From: Moritella sp. JT01
Lineage (GTDB): Bacteria > Pseudomonadota > Gammaproteobacteria > Enterobacterales > Moritellaceae
DNA length: 64,000 bases
Assembly: GCF_001574435.1 (NCBI RefSeq)
Contig: NZ_LOCN01000030.1
Location: 1-64,000, forward strand
Reading direction: 5' to 3'
Both the position numbers and the translations under genes were made by a program. Positions 5,612-13,717 of the stretch are shown piece after piece. The notes beneath the pieces are model-generated. The model saw nothing but the letters and a program-made list of their open reading frames with translations. It ran no database searches and was not told where the DNA came from. The first letter of the stretch is position 1, and every line of letters begins with the position of its first letter.

Positions 5612-6826
5612 TTAGTGGTGATCCCACTCGATAGTACTTAAATCGATACCATCTTTAAACATCTCCCATAGAGGTGACATTTCACGTAGTTTACTGATGT
5701 TTTCTTCAATGATGCTGGTTGCATAATCCACTTCTTCTTCAGTCGTAAAACGGCCGAATGAGAAACGAATTGAACTGTGTGCCATTTCATCGTTTAGACC
5801 TAATGCACGTAGTACATAAGACGGTTCTAAACTTGCTGATGTACAAGCAGAGCCAGAAGAAACCGCAAGGTCTTTCAGTGCCATCATTAATGACTCACCT
5901 TCAACAAAGTTGAAGCTTACGTTTAAGTTACTTACGATACGTTGTTCAGCATGGCCATTTAGATATACTTCTTCGATACCTGCGATACCTGCCCAGAAAC
6001 GTTTACGTAATGCTTCAGCATGGTCATGATCTTTTTGCATTTCTTCTTTAGCAATGCGGAACGCTTCACCCATACCCACGATTTGGTGAGTTGGTAATGT
6101 ACCACTACGCATACCACGTTCATGACCGCCACCGTGCATTTGCGCTTCTAGGCGGATACGCGGTTTACGTTGAACGTACAATGCACCAATACCTTTAGGA
6201 CCATAAATTTTATGTGCCGATACCGATAACATATCTACTTTTAGTTCAGAGAAATCGATTGGTAATTTGCCCGCACTTTGCGCAGCATCTACATGGAATA
6301 AGACTTTCTTAGAGCGACAAAGTTCACCCAATGCAGCGATATCATTAATCGCACCGATTTCGTTATTCACGTGCATGATACTAACAATGATTGTATCTTC
6401 ACGGATTGCAGCTTCAAGGATTTCAACCGTAATTAGACCTTCAGGTGTTGGGTCTAAATAAGTTACTTCGTATCCTTCACGCTCAAGTTGGCGACAAGTA
6501 TCCAGCACAGCTTTGTGCTCAATTTTACTTGTGATGATATGCTTGCCTTTCTTCTTATAGAAATGCGCAGCACCTTTAATCGCAAGATTGTTTGATTCAG
6601 TTGCGCCCGAAGTAATCACAACTTCTCGTGGGTCTGCATTTACTAAATCTGCAATTTGATTACGAGCAATGTCTACTGCTTCTTCAGCTTGCCAGCCGAA
6701 ACGATGTGAACGAGACGCTGGGTTACCAAAAATGCCGTCCATAGTTAAGCATTGCATCATTTTTTCTGCTACACGTGGATCTACAGGCGTAGTGGCAGAA
6801 TAATCCAAATAAATAGGTTTTTTCAT
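5612..6826 (-). CDS. iscS: Cysteine desulfurase IscS
   Basis: PLP-dependent enzyme of 404 aa that converts cysteine to alanine and a protein-bound persulfide, the sulfur source for Fe-S clusters and tRNA thiolation. Visible residues are H104 (KIEHK), the PLP lysine K206 (SAHKIYG) and the mobile-loop cysteine C328 (SGSACTS). Length and numbering match E. coli IscS. The gap to iscR is 93 bp. Confidence 0.98.
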
Positions 6827-6919: not shown

Positions 6920-7393
6920 TCAAATAATATTCACATCAATTTTTTTTAACATTTGACGGTCATGATCTTGTTCGTTGACAATCTGCTTTATCTCACTATT
7001 TGCCATCAAATCAGCAAGCGATATGTTATCAAGAAAATCACTAATCCGCTCACTTAAATCATCCCAAAGTGAATGCGTTAAACAGCGTTTTCCATCATTA
7101 CAACCACCCGAAGAATCACACCTAGTCGCTTTTACATTCTCATCAACTGCTTCAATAATCATGCCGACAGAAATCAGCCCAGGTAACATGCCTAACTTAT
7201 AGCCACCACCGGGTCCTCGAGCACTTGCTACCAGTTTCTTTCGACGTAATCGAGAGAATAACTGTTCCAAATACGACAGGGAAATACTTTGTCGTTCAGA
7301 TATTTCAGCCAGTGGTACAGGTTTCATTTCTGCGTGCAATGCAAGATCAATCATAGCTGTAACGGCGTAACGTCCTTTCGATGTCAATCGCAT
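6920..7393 (-). CDS. iscR: Fe-S sensing regulator IscR
   Basis: Rrf2-family repressor/activator of 157 aa. It has an N-terminal winged helix ([14 protein letters not shown]) and the [2Fe-2S] ligands C92, C98, C104 and H107 (CDSSGGC, KRCLTH). Cluster-loaded IscR represses its own operon through type-1 sites; one is present at 7431-7455, 38 bp upstream. It is the first gene of the isc core. Confidence 0.97.
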
Positions 7394-7514: not shown

Positions 7515-8231
7515 TTATTTCTTCAGGTTACGCTGAATAGAAACGAGTGCACCACGCAAGATGTTTAGCTCAACAGCTTCTGGACGAGCACGCGTGAAGA
7601 GTCGACGTAAACGATTCATTACGATTCCAGGATGGGCTTTATTAATAAAACCAGTATCCCATAATGTCTCTTCAAGATGAGTATGGAACATTTCCAGTTC
7701 TGCTTGCTTTGGATATGGGTTTTCTTGTTCTGGATAGGTGTTGGTAGCAAGATATGCCATACGTGTTTCGTACGTTAAGATCTGTACTGCCATGGCTAAA
7801 TTTAATGAGCTGTATTCAGGGTTTGCAGAAACACATACATGATAAGTACATTTTTGTAGTTCATCATTGGTCAAGCCAATACGCTCACGACCAAACACTA
7901 ATGCAACAGGGTAATTCGGCACTTCTTCAATCAGCTTTAAACCCGCTTCACGCGAATCAAGCATTGGCCACTGCAATGTACGTGAACGTGCACTTGTGCC
8001 AATCACAAGGCCACACTCAGCAACAGCGTCTTCTAAGGTATCGACGATGATTGCATTTTCTAATACATCTGCAGCTCCAGCAGCTAATGCTACTGATTTT
8101 TCATCAATTTCACATAAAGGTGCAACTAATACCAATTGCGTGAAGCCCATTGTTTTCATTGCACGAGCTGCCGAACCAATATTACCAGGATGAGATGTAC
8201 CGACTAATACAACTTTTACGTTTGCTAACAT
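7515..8231 (-). CDS. trmJ: tRNA Cm32/Um32 methyltransferase TrmJ
   Basis: SPOUT-class 2'-O-methyltransferase of 238 aa acting on position 32 of the tRNA anticodon loop. The N-terminal segment [20 protein letters not shown] and the knot segments ([35 protein letters not shown]) are typical. I use the ATG at 8231, which aligns with E. coli TrmJ, rather than 8258. It is upstream of iscR as in E. coli. Confidence 0.93.
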
Positions 8232-8527
8232 AATTAATGAATACCTACAAAGATGCATAATAGAAAAAAGGCCATTTAAACTACGAGTTTAAAACAGTGG
8301 TTAGACTATTACTGGAGTTGTTAATTTACTGGTCGCGGATTCTATCATAGTAAACAAGGTATATCTTGTCCCAATACCAATACCTCCCCTGCTTATTCTC
8401 ATCTATTTTTACTTTTACTTTGACTTACATCTCTTTTTTACATACCCCCTATTGAATATGACATTCCGTCACGTAATAATAAAACACAATGATTTCATAT
8501 AACTAAAGTTAATCTAAGGATGGAAAA
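8232..8527. promoter_or_regulatory. trmJ / lipase divergent intergenic region
   Basis: Divergent promoter region of 296 bp. For the lipase, a weak candidate is TTGAAT at 8452-8457 with TAATAA at 8474-8479 (16-bp spacer). An AAGGA Shine-Dalgarno precedes the lipase ATG. I see no clear operator or riboswitch. Confidence 0.4.
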
Positions 8528-9487
8528 ATGAAACGATTAATGATGATCGCAATAATGCTATCGACAACATTTCTCAATTATGCAAATGCTACAAATTATA
8601 CAGAAACCAAATATCCAATTGTACTCGTACATGGTTTTTTAGGCTTTGATGACATTCAAGGTTATGACTATTTTTACAAAATAGCGCAAAAGCTAAGACA
8701 AGATGGTGCCACAGTTTTTACCGCACAAATATCTTCAACCAATACAACCGAAATTAGAGGCGAGCAGCTTTTACAACAAGTTAAACAATTTTTGGCTCTG
8801 AGTGGAGCAAGTAAAGTGAATCTTATCGGACACAGTCATGGCGGTCCAACGTCTCGCTATGTTGCGTCAGTTGCGCCAGAACTCGTGGCTTCAGTTACAA
8901 GTATTGGTGGTGTGAACAAGGGGTCCAAAGTCGCTGATTTATTCTATAGCGTTGCGCCTGATGGCACTTTGATTAATACTGCTGGTGCAACTATTATCGG
9001 CTACATATCAAAAATAGCGCAATTCTTATCCGGTGGTTCATCACTTCCTGTTGACCCAGTAGGCGCTTTAAAAGCATTAACGACATATAAATCGCTTGCG
9101 TTTAATAAAAAATATCCAGAAGGTGTGCCTACCACAGCATGTGGTGAAGGTGACCCTGTAGTCATAAGTACAGTGAATAATGTACAGCACAAAGTGTACT
9201 ATTATTCTTGGACTGGAAACAGATTAGTAACGAGTCCTAAAGATGCCCTAATTGATGTACCGCTAAAGGCTGTAAGTTTACTCGCTTTTGGTTCGTCATG
9301 GCTCGGTGGTGAAGACAATGATGGCATGGTCGGCGTTTGTAGCACTCACTTAGGTAAAGTGATTGGTACTTATCGAATGAACCATGTTGATGAAATCAAT
9401 CAGGTGCTTGGCCATACAGCATTATTCCTCTCTGTTCCAAGTCTGTACCGTCAACATGCAAACCGCTTAAAACTACAAGGTTTATAG
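8528..9487 (+). CDS. Secreted triacylglycerol lipase (family I.1/I.2)
   Basis: A 319-aa lipase with a signal peptide (about 1-21). It has the oxyanion segment VLVHGFLGF near residues 32-40, the nucleophile S103 in GHSHGG, an Asp around 263-265 in EDNDGMVG and H286 in NHVDE. Two cysteines (TACGEGD and GVCSTHLG) match the disulfide of Pseudomonas-type lipases. Such lipases fold in the periplasm with a dedicated foldase, encoded 1 nt downstream, and then leave by type II secretion. It hydrolyses long-chain acylglycerols. Confidence 0.92.
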   Translation: MKRLMMIAIMLSTTFLNYANATNYTETKYPIVLVHGFLGFDDIQGYDYFYKIAQKLRQDGATVFTAQISSTNTTEIRGEQLLQQVKQFLALSGASKVNLIGHSHGGPTSRYVASVAPELVASVTSIGGVNKGSKVADLFYSVAPDGTLINTAGATIIGYISKIAQFLSGGSSLPVDPVGALKALTTYKSLAFNKKYPEGVPTTACGEGDPVVISTVNNVQHKVYYYSWTGNRLVTSPKDALIDVPLKAVSLLAFGSSWLGGEDNDGMVGVCSTHLGKVIGTYRMNHVDEINQVLGHTALFLSVPSLYRQHANRLKLQGL

Positions 9488-9488
9488 A

Positions 9489-10457
9489 ATGAAAAAGGCT
9501 ACACTAGTAATCACAGTTATCGCAGCGGCTGCTAGTGTAGCCTATCTAACATTGAATGATAAACCGATAAATAAACAGGCTGTAAAGGCTATTAAGTTAG
9601 CCACTCATTCAGCAGTAATAGTACAAAATAATAAGATCACAGAAGTAGCAATCAAGCATAAAAAAACGATGCCATTAGCCGTCCGCGTCGATAGCTCACC
9701 GATTCAAGCGTCATCTCAGCAAGACACAGAGATTGACCAAACATCATTACGAGATATGTTTGACTATTTTCTATCTGGTTTTGATGAAACAGAAATGGAT
9801 ATTGAACAATTAAAAGCGAACGTCAAAAGATTCATAACAAACAACCCAGAGCGATATAGCACAGCAGATTATGATTTATTCGAACGTTTTCTGTTATATA
9901 AACAATCTTTACTTTCGATAGATGTAAACCAAGACCCTAATATTGATGATTTAGAACGTCTTGATAGTGAATTACGGGATAAACAATTAGCCCTATTTAG
10001 CACAGCAGAACAAAAGTTACTTTTTAATAACGAGAATTTACATCGGCAAGTCACCATCAAAAAACTCTATTTAAAATCTATTGCGGTATCTCAAGAAGAC
10101 TATCGCTACCAGCTTAAAGAAGAGTTGTCCAACTTCCCAGAAGAAATTAGTCGAGTTTATCAAGATGATCTTGTGACATCAGAACTAAATCAAATAGCAA
10201 ACTATGACGACGAACAACAGCGATATATAGCTTATGAAGCGATAGGGCCAGAGGTTGCAGTTAGAATGACAGAACTTGAACATCAAGAAACAGCGCTAGA
10301 TAACAAGATAAAGTCATACTTAACTCAGAGAAGGCAAATTATGAACGATGATAGTCATTTAAATAAAGAAGCCCGCATAGATGACTTAAGATATGCACTC
10401 TTTAATACAGCTGAACAAAAACGCATAAGATCCCTAGAATATATCGACGATCTATAA
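9489..10457 (+). CDS. Lipase-specific foldase (Lif)
   Basis: Membrane-anchored steric chaperone of 322 aa for the preceding lipase. It has a single N-terminal transmembrane segment (about residues 4-21), a variable linker, and the conserved foldase motif RDMFDYFLSGFDE at residues 88-100 (family RxxFDY(F/C)LS). A long helical, charged extension follows, as in the known lipase-foldase complex. The ATG is 1 nt after the lipase stop, so the pair forms one operon. Confidence 0.92.
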   Translation: MKKATLVITVIAAAASVAYLTLNDKPINKQAVKAIKLATHSAVIVQNNKITEVAIKHKKTMPLAVRVDSSPIQASSQQDTEIDQTSLRDMFDYFLSGFDETEMDIEQLKANVKRFITNNPERYSTADYDLFERFLLYKQSLLSIDVNQDPNIDDLERLDSELRDKQLALFSTAEQKLLFNNENLHRQVTIKKLYLKSIAVSQEDYRYQLKEELSNFPEEISRVYQDDLVTSELNQIANYDDEQQRYIAYEAIGPEVAVRMTELEHQETALDNKIKSYLTQRRQIMNDDSHLNKEARIDDLRYALFNTAEQKRIRSLEYIDDL

Positions 10458-10527: not shown

Positions 10528-10556
10528 TTGAACATTTTAACAAAGTTGGGTATAAT
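10528..10556 (+). promoter_or_regulatory. Sigma-70 promoter of suhB
   Basis: TTGAAC (10528-10533), a 17-bp spacer and a consensus TATAAT (10551-10556), 45 bp before the suhB ATG. A GC-rich discriminator (CCGCGCCC) follows the -10, a feature of growth-rate or stringently controlled promoters. Confidence 0.75.
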
Positions 10557-10600: not shown

Positions 10601-11404
10601 ATGCATCCGATGCTAACAATCGCGATCCGTGCTGCGCGTGACGCAGGCAATGTAATCGTAAAAGCTTATGGCGATCCTGGTAAAACTAAGGTTGAGCAAA
10701 AAGGCACAAATGATTTTGTGACTAACGTAGAAAAAGAAGCTGAAGCAGCTATTATCGCTACAATTAAAAAAGCTTACCCTGAGCATACGATCATCGCAAA
10801 AGAAAGCGGTGCGACTACTGGTGCAGATACAGACTACCAGTGGATCATTGACCCACTAAACGGTCATATTAACTTTATCAAAGGTATTCCACACTTCGCA
10901 GTATCTGTTGCTTTACACGTTAAAGGTAAAGCTGAAGTTGCTGTTATCTTTGATGCTATCGGTGATGAAATTTTCTCTGCTTGTCGTGGTAAAGGCGCTC
11001 AATTAAACGGTTTCCGTTTACGTGCTGGTTCTGCTAAAGATTTATCTGGTACTGTTTTAGCGACAGGCTTCCCACACAGCATGAAGCATCAGCAAGATAC
11101 TTACATGAACATCTTCGGCGCATTATTCACTGAATGTGCTGATATCCGTGCATCTGGTTGTCCTGCACTTAACCTTGCTTACCTAGCAGCTGGTCGTATC
11201 GACGGTTTATGGAGCATGGGTCAAAAGCCTTGGGAAACTGCAGCGGGTAACTTAATCGCTACTGAATCAGGCGCTATCGTCACTGATTTCGCTGGCGGCC
11301 ATGACTTCTTCAAGTCTGGTAACTCAGTTGCTGCATCACCACGTGTACTTAAAGATATGCTTGCTAAGATCCGTCCTAATCTGACTGAATCTTTAGCTAA
11401 ATAA
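10601..11404 (+). CDS. suhB: SuhB, IMPase family, degenerate active site
   Basis: Inositol monophosphatase-family protein of 267 aa, aligned end to end with E. coli SuhB. The metal-binding motifs are altered: VTNVD reads VTNVE (E44), EES reads KES (K67), DPLDGT reads DPLNGH (N87, H89) and WD reads WE (E212). Only D84 of the core set remains. Phosphatase activity is therefore doubtful. E. coli SuhB also acts in rRNA transcription antitermination with NusA, a role reported to be separable from catalysis, and that role could persist here. It has its own strong promoter and terminator. Confidence 0.93.
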   Translation: MHPMLTIAIRAARDAGNVIVKAYGDPGKTKVEQKGTNDFVTNVEKEAEAAIIATIKKAYPEHTIIAKESGATTGADTDYQWIIDPLNGHINFIKGIPHFAVSVALHVKGKAEVAVIFDAIGDEIFSACRGKGAQLNGFRLRAGSAKDLSGTVLATGFPHSMKHQQDTYMNIFGALFTECADIRASGCPALNLAYLAAGRIDGLWSMGQKPWETAAGNLIATESGAIVTDFAGGHDFFKSGNSVAASPRVLKDMLAKIRPNLTESLAK

Positions 11405-11450
11405 TATTGGCGGTAACGCGCTACATTATTAAGTAAAAATCAAGAAAAAA

Positions 11451-11486
11451 AGGCCCAGTACTTGCTATAAGTACTGGGCCTTTTTT
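11451..11486 (+). terminator. Terminator of suhB
   Basis: A perfect 13-bp stem (11451-11463 with 11469-11481), a 5-nt loop and a T-run. The A-run before it would also allow function on the other strand. Confidence 0.9.
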
Positions 11487-11617: not shown

Positions 11618-12628
11618 GTGATAATGATAAAATTTAAACGACCTAAAATATTACCGCTAGCAGTGGCCTTAACCGTTACCGCAAGCCTTAGCTTAACCGG
11701 CTGTACCAGTATGCAGCAGGCAGTCGCCGCGAGTCCAAGTGTGAGTAGCGTTTGGGGGGTTGGCGAAATGCCGATAGAAGATCTCAATGCTTTGTACGCC
11801 AACGAGCAGTCACAATGGATGGATGTTAATGGAATGCGCATTCATTACCGTGACGAAGGCAATCCTAATGGTCAACCGATTGTATTAATACACGGTATTT
11901 TATCATCACTGCATACTTGGAAGGAATGGAATAAAGGCTTAGCAGATAAGTACCGGATCATCAGCCTTGATATGCCAGGCTTTGGTTTAACTGGTGGTCC
12001 AGAAAATCCAGACGACTTCTCTGAAGCGCTATTACACTCATCTTTTGAGCAATTTATTGCCCAATTGAAACTCGATGACTTTATTCTGGTAGGCAATTCC
12101 CTCGGCGGTTATGTTTCTGCTTATTATGCAGCGAACTATCCTGATAAAATAAAAAAACTTATCCTTATTGATCCTGCTGGCGCGCCACAGGATCTGCCGT
12201 TTATTTTAAGCTTTGCCAGTATGCCCGGTATCAATGCACTGGTAGCCAATGTGTTTCCTCCTTTCATTATCGCAATGGGAGTTAAGGACGTATACGGTGA
12301 TCAAGATCTAATCACCAAAGAAAATATGGACCGTTATATTCATCTCTCTTTGCGTCCAGGAGCTAAACAAGCCTACGCCAATACGATTGCCATGTTAAAT
12401 GAAAAGAATAATAAACAATCTCCGTTAGACTTTGAATCGATTACGGCACCGACTCTATTAATGTGGGGTCACAAAGACATTTGGGTACCACAAAAACTCA
12501 GCGAGCAATGGTTAGCAAACATCCCAGGATCAAGCTTAATTACTTATCCAAACGCTGGTCATGTACCTATGGAAGAGATCCCACAACAAACACTTAATGA
12601 TGCATTAGCTTTCATTAATTCAAAATAA
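11618..12628 (+). CDS. Alpha/beta hydrolase lipoprotein
   Basis: A 336-aa hydrolase with a lipoprotein signal: lipobox LTGC with C29. The fold motifs are the HG oxyanion segment IHGILSS (about 91-97), the nucleophile S161 in GNSLGG, D287 in WGHKD and H315 in NAGHVP. Substrate unknown; probably an esterase or lipase-like enzyme anchored to the cell envelope. The start is a GTG at 11618 with AAGGA 7 nt upstream; an ATG two codons later is an alternative. It lies near other lipolytic genes (lipase, patatin, fadH). Confidence 0.8.
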   Translation: MIMIKFKRPKILPLAVALTVTASLSLTGCTSMQQAVAASPSVSSVWGVGEMPIEDLNALYANEQSQWMDVNGMRIHYRDEGNPNGQPIVLIHGILSSLHTWKEWNKGLADKYRIISLDMPGFGLTGGPENPDDFSEALLHSSFEQFIAQLKLDDFILVGNSLGGYVSAYYAANYPDKIKKLILIDPAGAPQDLPFILSFASMPGINALVANVFPPFIIAMGVKDVYGDQDLITKENMDRYIHLSLRPGAKQAYANTIAMLNEKNNKQSPLDFESITAPTLLMWGHKDIWVPQKLSEQWLANIPGSSLITYPNAGHVPMEEIPQQTLNDALAFINSK

Positions 12629-12804: not shown

Positions 12805-12831
12805 ACAAATACTACAAATACTACAAATATT
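12805..12831 (+). repeat. Three copies of a 9-bp tandem repeat
   Basis: ACAAATACT occurs twice, followed by ACAAATATT, just upstream of the patatin gene. No function evident. Confidence 0.5.
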
Positions 12832-12880
12832 GGTATTTACTCTAGGCTTGTTAAAGCAAGCGCAATATATCGAGGTTGCT

Positions 12881-13717
12881 ATGATAAAAACAGCACTTGT
12901 TGTAGAAGGTGGCGGTATGCGTAGCGTATTTACCGCAGGAGTGTTAGATACCTTTTTAGATCAAGGCTATGACCCCTTTGATCTGTTTATTGGTAGTTCA
13001 GCAGGGACGCTAAACCTCTCCGCGTTTATCGCAGGACAAAAAAAATATTCAGTTAGACTCATTAATCATCTTGCTAAATCAACGACTTTTGTCAATTGGA
13101 CTCGCTTTTTAAAAGGCGGAAATGCCATGGAACTTAGAGAATTACATGATTTATTAGCATTCCATGATCCAATAGACCTAAACAAAGCGAAACAACGGCT
13201 AAACTCACGTCCATTTGTCATCACCAGTTGTGATAGATCAAAAGGTGAAGCAAGTTATCAAATAGCGGACCCCAGCCAATGGTTCCAACAAATCATCGCG
13301 TCATGCGCGCTACCTATCGTTTTTCGTCCCGGAGTAAAACTTGGAGATGACATCCACATTGATGGTGGCTTAGTTGATCCTATACCGGTAAAAAAGGCGG
13401 TCGACTTAGGTGCCAATAATATTATTGTGATAAGGACCAGAACTCGACGTTGGGTAGAAAAACTATCCGTTTTAGAACGCCTACTTACGTTCTGGGTTAG
13501 ACACGATACAGTACTCACCAAATTGCTTGATAATTACAGCAAAGAATACAACAGTACTTGCGAATTTATGCGTAATCCACCAGCAGGTATCAATATTATC
13601 GAAATAGCGCCTGATGAAGAACTGCAAACGCCCACGTTAACACGTCAAGTTAGCACACTAGAGGGCGATTATAGCGCAGGTATTAAAGCCGCGACGTTAT
13701 TCTTACAACATCATTAA
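12881..13717 (+). CDS. Patatin-like phospholipase
   Basis: A 278-aa patatin-fold acyl hydrolase with the oxyanion loop EGGGMR (residues 9-14), nucleophile elbow GSSAG (38-42, S40) and the catalytic DGG in HIDGGLVDP. No signal peptide, so it is likely cytoplasmic, as in the YjjU-type branch; phospholipid or lysolipid hydrolysis is probable. I use the ATG at 12881, with GAGG upstream, rather than a TTG at 12830, because the patatin core starts right after it. Confidence 0.85.
   Translation: MIKTALVVEGGGMRSVFTAGVLDTFLDQGYDPFDLFIGSSAGTLNLSAFIAGQKKYSVRLINHLAKSTTFVNWTRFLKGGNAMELRELHDLLAFHDPIDLNKAKQRLNSRPFVITSCDRSKGEASYQIADPSQWFQQIIASCALPIVFRPGVKLGDDIHIDGGLVDPIPVKKAVDLGANNIIVIRTRTRRWVEKLSVLERLLTFWVRHDTVLTKLLDNYSKEYNSTCEFMRNPPAGINIIEIAPDEELQTPTLTRQVSTLEGDYSAGIKAATLFLQHH

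Follow-up and report, generated by a model that had tools for sequence, protein, structure and literature searches.

Among known systems, the protein studied here is closest to SuhB of E. coli, for which inositol monophosphatase (IMPase) activity has been demonstrated (PMC4807359) and which also binds NusA AR2 and nut RNA and admits NusB/E (PMC6614801). The main role of SuhB in vivo may be rRNA maturation rather than antitermination, and no obvious metabolic need for IMPase activity is described for E. coli (PMC4807359). The growth defect and other phenotypes of suhB mutants are reported to be independent of IMPase activity (PMC4807359, PMC6614801, PMC2834668), and a mutant with a null active site from Chen and Roberts (2000), cited in PMC2834668 as D93N in what is apparently another numbering, keeps the growth role intact. 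K251 and L254 of the E. coli protein contact NusA AR2 (PMC6614801).

The catalytic site itself has been described for human IMPase, in which E70, D90 and I92 hold Mg-I, D90, D93 and D220 hold Mg-II, and E70 holds Mg-III (PMC4954947). Human E213, which corresponds to E. coli E205, contacts inositol and is the inositol-specificity residue (PMC2080633). Metal also bears on the quaternary structure: in M. tuberculosis, Mg2+ brings about dimer formation of SuhB, and for the E. coli protein a monomeric state in EDTA has been reported (PMC2080633). The R184A substitution was suggested to stabilise the E. coli dimer, and the wild-type protein was later also shown to be dimeric (PMC6614801).

The suhB gene of the window and its neighbourhood

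The DNA analysed here, called the window, is a stretch of 64,000 nucleotides from Moritella sp. JT01. It carries an ORF of 267 aa with an ATG start at positions 10601-11404 of the forward strand, which lies among the following features:

5612-6826: iscS-like ORF, named by reading the ORF
6920-7393: iscR-like ORF, named by reading the ORF
7515..8258, reverse strand: trmJ-like ORF, named by reading the ORF
8528-9487 and 9489-10457: alpha/beta-hydrolase (lipase-like) and PF03280 lipase chaperone, between trmJ and suhB
10528..10556, forward strand: sigma-70-like promoter TTGAAC-17-TATAAT, then CCGCGCCC, from the promoter scan
10601..11404, forward strand: suhB orthologue, predicted to be a catalytically inactive protein of inositol-monophosphatase fold (267 aa; family score, alignments, predicted fold)
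11446..11486, both strands: terminator-like hairpin after suhB, from the terminator scan
11618-12628 and 12830-13717: further alpha/beta hydrolase and patatin-like phospholipase with a DUF6363 tail, downstream of suhB

The product of this ORF is identical to SuhB of E. coli MG1655 (b2533) at 154 of 267 positions and its alignment to 2qfl is free of gaps, which bears out the statement of the first-pass annotation that the protein aligns well to its end. Against the NCBIfam model PRK10757.1 ('inositol-1-monophosphatase') it scores 385.9 bits over residues 1-266, the curated cut-off being 332, and it is thus equivalent in sequence to this model and to E. coli SuhB over the full length. The best matches of its predicted fold (structure model of mean pLDDT 71.7, below 50 at residues 33-36, 89-96, 142-161 and 180-183) are the E. 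coli SuhB entries 2qfl, 6tqn and 6ib8. The order iscS-iscR-trmJ-suhB is common to the window and to E. coli, where these genes are annotated. This neighbourhood and the sequence identity mark the ORF as orthologous to E. coli suhB.

Between trmJ and suhB the window carries an inserted lipase pair, so that, with the hydrolase genes downstream, suhB is flanked by hydrolase genes on both sides. Of nine further Moritella loci, three (L010, L012, L015) have a chaperone-like ORF 5' of suhB. In the remaining six, among them L006, the closest relative of the window by sequence, no frame in the 1500 bases upstream is longer than the trmJ-like ORF. The presence of the lipase chaperone upstream of suhB is patchy across Moritella.

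Scans of the region returned seven promoter-like sites (shuffled mean 2.8) and four terminator-like sites (shuffled mean 1.0). The gene had been credited with a strong promoter bearing a GC-rich discriminator. This stood for the G+C-rich stretch, as TATA(A/C)T followed by CCGCGCCC is conserved in 11/11 Moritella, but not for the near-consensus hexamers: exact TATAAT occurs in three of the 11 and TTGAAC in four, namely the window, L010, L012 and L015, which are the loci with a chaperone or chaperone-like ORF upstream.

Active-site substitutions and their distribution

The codons that differ from E. coli at the active site and at the pair 184/191, all on the forward strand and placed by alignment, are as follows:

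10730..10732: D44E, codon GAA; three of the 11 Moritella retain D
10799..10801: E67K at a metal ligand, codon AAA; in all 11 Moritella
10859..10861: D87N at a metal ligand, codon AAC; in all 11 Moritella
10865..10867: T89H, codon CAT; seven of the 11 Moritella have H, three T and one N
11150..11152: R184A, as in the E. coli R184A variant of 2qfl
11171..11173: D191N, present with the change at 184 in all 11 Moritella
11213..11215: E205S, at the residue for inositol specificity (E213 in human IMPase)
11234..11236: D212E at a metal ligand; shared with 10 of the 111 proteins from outside the genus

All five changes listed by the first-pass annotation (D44E, E67K, D87N, T89H, D212E) were seen against E. 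coli b2533, and D84 is retained, as it had said; K34, E68, L86, G88 and W211 are likewise unchanged. D44 and T89 are presumably the water-activating pair. The first-pass annotation was right about the substitutions, but D44 is absent from the metal-ligand lists consulted (PMC2080633, PMC4954947), and E205S and R184A/D191N had been overlooked. By alignment, the human ligands correspond to E. coli E67, D84, L86, D87 and D212. Held against an active IMPase (EC 3.1.3.25), the ligand set E67, D84, D87, D212 reads K67, D84, N87, E212 in 11/11 Moritella; the D44/T89 pair has become E44 and H89 in the window protein and is intact in three of the 11; and E205 is replaced by S205 in all of them. Since the cut-off of PRK10757.1 is passed nonetheless, automatic annotation would hide the change of the active site, and this curated equivalog model would label Moritella suhB as an active enzyme. 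At the positions of 184 and 191 human IMPase has Ser and Asn, and R184A and D191N are not claimed as catalytic losses; they are probably a coupled, non-catalytic pair, which may be sited at the dimer interface.

On these residues, K67 and N87 should hinder metal loading. Weak metal binding is nevertheless possible, since D84 is kept and position 68 is acidic, and one could suppose that D84, E212 and the L86 carbonyl hold enough metal for a weakened yet working phosphatase, the more so as K34 and G88 are retained as well and E212 occurs in otherwise intact proteins elsewhere (see below). However, with E67K a positive charge stands where metal sites I and III are held, with D87N a ligand of site II that also contacts inositol is gone, and mutations at these sites of M. 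tuberculosis SuhB cut activity dramatically (PMC2080633). We therefore regard residual activity as improbable.

SuhB-like matches are present in 385 of 394 genomes of the order. For comparison we used 99 of the better-scoring listed places outside the genus and 15 further non-Moritella loci, which gave 114 rows and, after removal of the duplicates L048, L063 and L069, 111 distinct proteins, a sample skewed toward the closer families of the order. D44, D84, D87, E205, R184 and D191 are invariant in all 111; T89 is found in 110, E67 in 109 and D212 in 100 (10 E, 1 N). Beyond D212E, these proteins share with Moritella only one E67K/T89A and one change at E67 to Q. Nine of the ten D212E proteins have D44, E67, D84, D87, T89 and E205 intact and the tenth (L085) has E67Q, so that D212E is weak evidence and was not counted as a loss. 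That many homologues might carry the same substitutions, which would have spoken against loss, proved true within this sample of 111 for D212E only and for none of the other changes. The carriers belong to two families, f25 (L036, L037, L038, L042, L050, L051, L053, L139) and f16 (L083, L085). Family f25, the most similar to Moritella by sequence, is probably Aeromonadaceae, going by a 64.8% match in an Aeromonas caviae record; a protein search of plasmids gave no match above 80% identity.

The window protein changes nine of 69 near-invariant positions, and Moritella proteins change 7-11 each; 89 of the 111 outside proteins change none and the maximum among them is four. These changes concentrate at the active site, where five of ten positions (K34, D44, E67, E68, D84, D87, G88, T89, E205, W211) are altered as against four of the 59 other conserved positions (Fisher p = 0.002); a narrower list of six active-site positions gives 4/6 against 5/63 (p = 0.002). 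Sites that still vary within Moritella show the same tendency (3/10 against 2/59, p = 0.02). Both lists were compiled with the changes already known, from PMC2080633 and PMC4954947 and with D44 added for its role in activating water, so the p-values are indicative.

Full-length suhB with an open frame is present in 11/11 Moritella genomes at 93-100% identity, and the family search recovered the same 11 proteins. K67, N87, S205, A184, N191 and E212 occur in every one, as do changes at P119 and K160; the presence of K67, N87 and E212 in all 11 rules out a sequencing error or the oddity of a single strain. E44 is found in eight, H89 in seven and N89 in one, and three (L010, L012, L015) retain both D44 and T89. 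In a maximum likelihood tree of 123 distinct rows the Moritella proteins form one clade (support 100/100) on a long stem branch of 0.51 changes per site. Within it, the eight proteins lacking D44/T89 group together (97/85); support is less firm for the order in which the three with D44 and T89 branch below them (100/73, 100/75). Since three keep the pair and the other eight are one supported group, the loss was stepwise: E67K, D87N, E205S and R184A/D191N arose on the Moritella stem, and D44E and T89H/N came later. Mapping on the tree, which had been proposed for the five positions first named, thus places K67, N87 and E212 genus-wide and confines E44 and H/N89 to one group.

The same distribution bears on the idea that the active site was not lost but remodelled to serve a different substrate or chemistry. 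Enzymes that accept fructose-1,6-bisphosphate as well have Asp, His, Ser or Thr at the E205 site (PMC2080633), and E205S is a change of this type; H89 and K67 could act in catalysis, and D84 and G88 are retained. A new essential active site should not vary, though, and positions 44, 68 and 89 still do so among the 11 Moritella, while the metal ligands E67 and D87 are lost in all of them. We hold such a neofunctionalised enzyme to be unlikely.

A second case was found in the same order (genome G220, family f27, genus g36; loci L127/L152), where SuhB has E67K, T89A and D212N in an open frame and retains D44, D87, R184, D191 and E205. The three other genomes of its genus retain E67, T89 and D212, so one of four is changed. 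The loss in G220 is independent and apparently recent and again includes E67K, which was reached at least twice independently, in Moritella and in G220.

The D87N form was also sought as the pattern DPxNGxxNF, which detects the change in the exact spacing only, misses losses such as that of G220 and has at best about the sensitivity of the D form (DPxDGxxNF matches 90 of 114 class genomes). It occurs in 3/369 class genomes and 5/398 phylum genomes, overlapping sets that both include the genome studied here, and no other SuhB with D87N in this form was found among them, the frames being judged by reading. Five of the six places outside the window were judged in this way to be unrelated or short frames, and two of the places with the pattern (L156, L158) gave no tblastn match with E. 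coli SuhB. At L160 (G904, elsewhere in the phylum) the pattern reads DPINGTANF in a protein that, by reading, belongs to the IMPase family and seems to have its remaining motifs intact.

Constraint on the gene, its partners and other phosphatases

Among 55 pairs of Moritella suhB the median dN/dS (NG86) is 0.138; two genera of f25 give 0.072 (209 pairs) and 0.062 (22 pairs), using pairs with dS of 0.03-1 only. The gene is, by this measure, under purifying selection that is milder than in f25, and the roughly twofold ratio suggests that constraint is somewhat relaxed. This and the long stem could be read as signs of a decaying pseudogene without any function. Against such decay, the full-length frame is open in 11/11 genomes, dN/dS stays at the low value given above, 58 of the 69 near-invariant positions are retained in all Moritella, and promoter-like and terminator-like sites are present; a pseudogene is, in our view, hardly credible. 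The length of the stem does mean that functions other than catalysis may have changed.

The proposal that the NusA role was kept agrees with what we found. Both K251 and L254 are retained in the window protein and in 11/11 Moritella; the check covers these two decisive NusA residues. As K251 is present in 93 of the 111 outside proteins and L254 in 101, their retention shows only that the surface was not lost. The NusA encoded in the same genome has a C-terminal helix-hairpin-helix domain. The boxA sequence TGCTCTTTAACAATT has 8 and 17 exact matches in two complete Moritella genomes (reversed control 0), and it lies about 180-200 bases upstream of 16S in all ten loci searched with Rfam (8/8 of G010 and 2/17 of G008). 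Thus boxA stands before 16S in two relatives of the strain. Its own draft genome has ten exact matches, at which Rfam found no rRNA, apparently since contigs end there; with one mismatch allowed, boxA and the reversed control are about equal there (18 and 17). Within the window the boxA core has no match.

A search for a second, intact IMPase had also been proposed, and it turned up CysQ-type relatives only. PF00459 matches four proteins of the genome. Two of them (C16 and C9) pass the TIGR01331 cut-off for CysQ and fail that of PRK10931.1; a third (C39; L004 1480-2217) is a CysQ-like PF00459 protein of 246 aa that scores below all listed NCBIfam cut-offs. C39 matches only positions 2-160 of the 271-position family, and similar frames in other Moritella are open over 316-354 aa. 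No second intact SuhB was found by this search or by the pattern DPxDGxxNF, which has no match in the genome. Since M. tuberculosis CysQ hydrolyses inositol-1-phosphate in vitro (PMC2080633), the Moritella cell may, by analogy, do so through CysQ. No PF01658 match (inositol-1-phosphate synthase) was found in the genome; of the control genomes 6/14 were positive, E. coli not being one of these six.

Interpretation and comparison with known systems

From these observations, Moritella SuhB is probably a genus-wide pseudo-inositol-monophosphatase that has lost catalysis and Mg2+ coordination and is kept as a Nus factor in the transcription and maturation of rRNA. The first-pass annotation had suspected a natural separation-of-function form, and the rarity of the changes, their concentration at the active site, the open frames and the purifying selection all speak for it. 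We infer the absence of activity as well as the retention of the rRNA role.

On the genus stem, E67K, D87N and E205S would have removed metal ligands and an inositol contact, alongside the changes R184A and D191N; D44E and T89H/N, which followed in most species, would have removed the water-activating pair. The folded protein, if it behaves as in E. coli, would still bind NusA AR2 and a nut-like leader RNA and help to load NusB/E. Loss of metal would be expected to cost dimerisation, because the M. tuberculosis dimer depends on Mg2+ and the E. coli protein is monomeric in EDTA, and the A184 of Moritella suggests a compensation for this loss. One may speculate that K67 makes up for the charge lost with Mg2+, and that A184/N191 stabilise a dimer that needs no metal. 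The fuller proposal makes Moritella SuhB an rRNA transcription factor that works without metal, with K67 standing in for the catalytic Mg2+ and A184/N191 keeping together the dimer whose formation Mg2+ assists in other SuhBs; it is put forward as a tentative one that we think rather doubtful. If it were true, E67K would be a repeatable way for SuhB to give up its enzyme activity and release its rRNA function from control by metal.

Since work in E. coli had already indicated that catalysis is dispensable, Moritella would offer an evolutionary confirmation rather than a new kind of system, and its sequences are best read as those of a naturally occurring pseudoenzyme version of a protein already known to moonlight. 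A literature search, which most subscription papers lay outside, gave no work joining SuhB with pseudoenzyme, D87N or Moritella. As E. coli has no obvious need for IMPase, one may ask why its SuhB keeps the active site. The Moritella proteins, among which an intermediate stage is preserved, form a natural set for separation of function that should help to tell the enzymatic from the rRNA role.

In synteny, in its 154/267 identity, in its best fold match and in K251 and L254, the window protein is like E. coli SuhB (2qfl, 6ib7, 6ib8, 6tqn). The latter has D44, E67, D84, D87, T89, E205 and D212, whereas the window protein is without six of these seven. It resembles G220 SuhB as a natural active-site loss in an open frame with E67K common to both; unlike in Moritella, the change in G220 is seen in only one of four genomes of its genus, and D44, D87, R184, D191 and E205 are retained. 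The E. coli active-site mutant of Chen and Roberts (2000) reportedly carries D87N. If so, Moritella SuhB has the same substitution and, by prediction, a dead active site as well. The E. coli null mutant is, however, a single mutant made in the laboratory, whereas the Moritella form is natural, involves several residues and extends over the genus.
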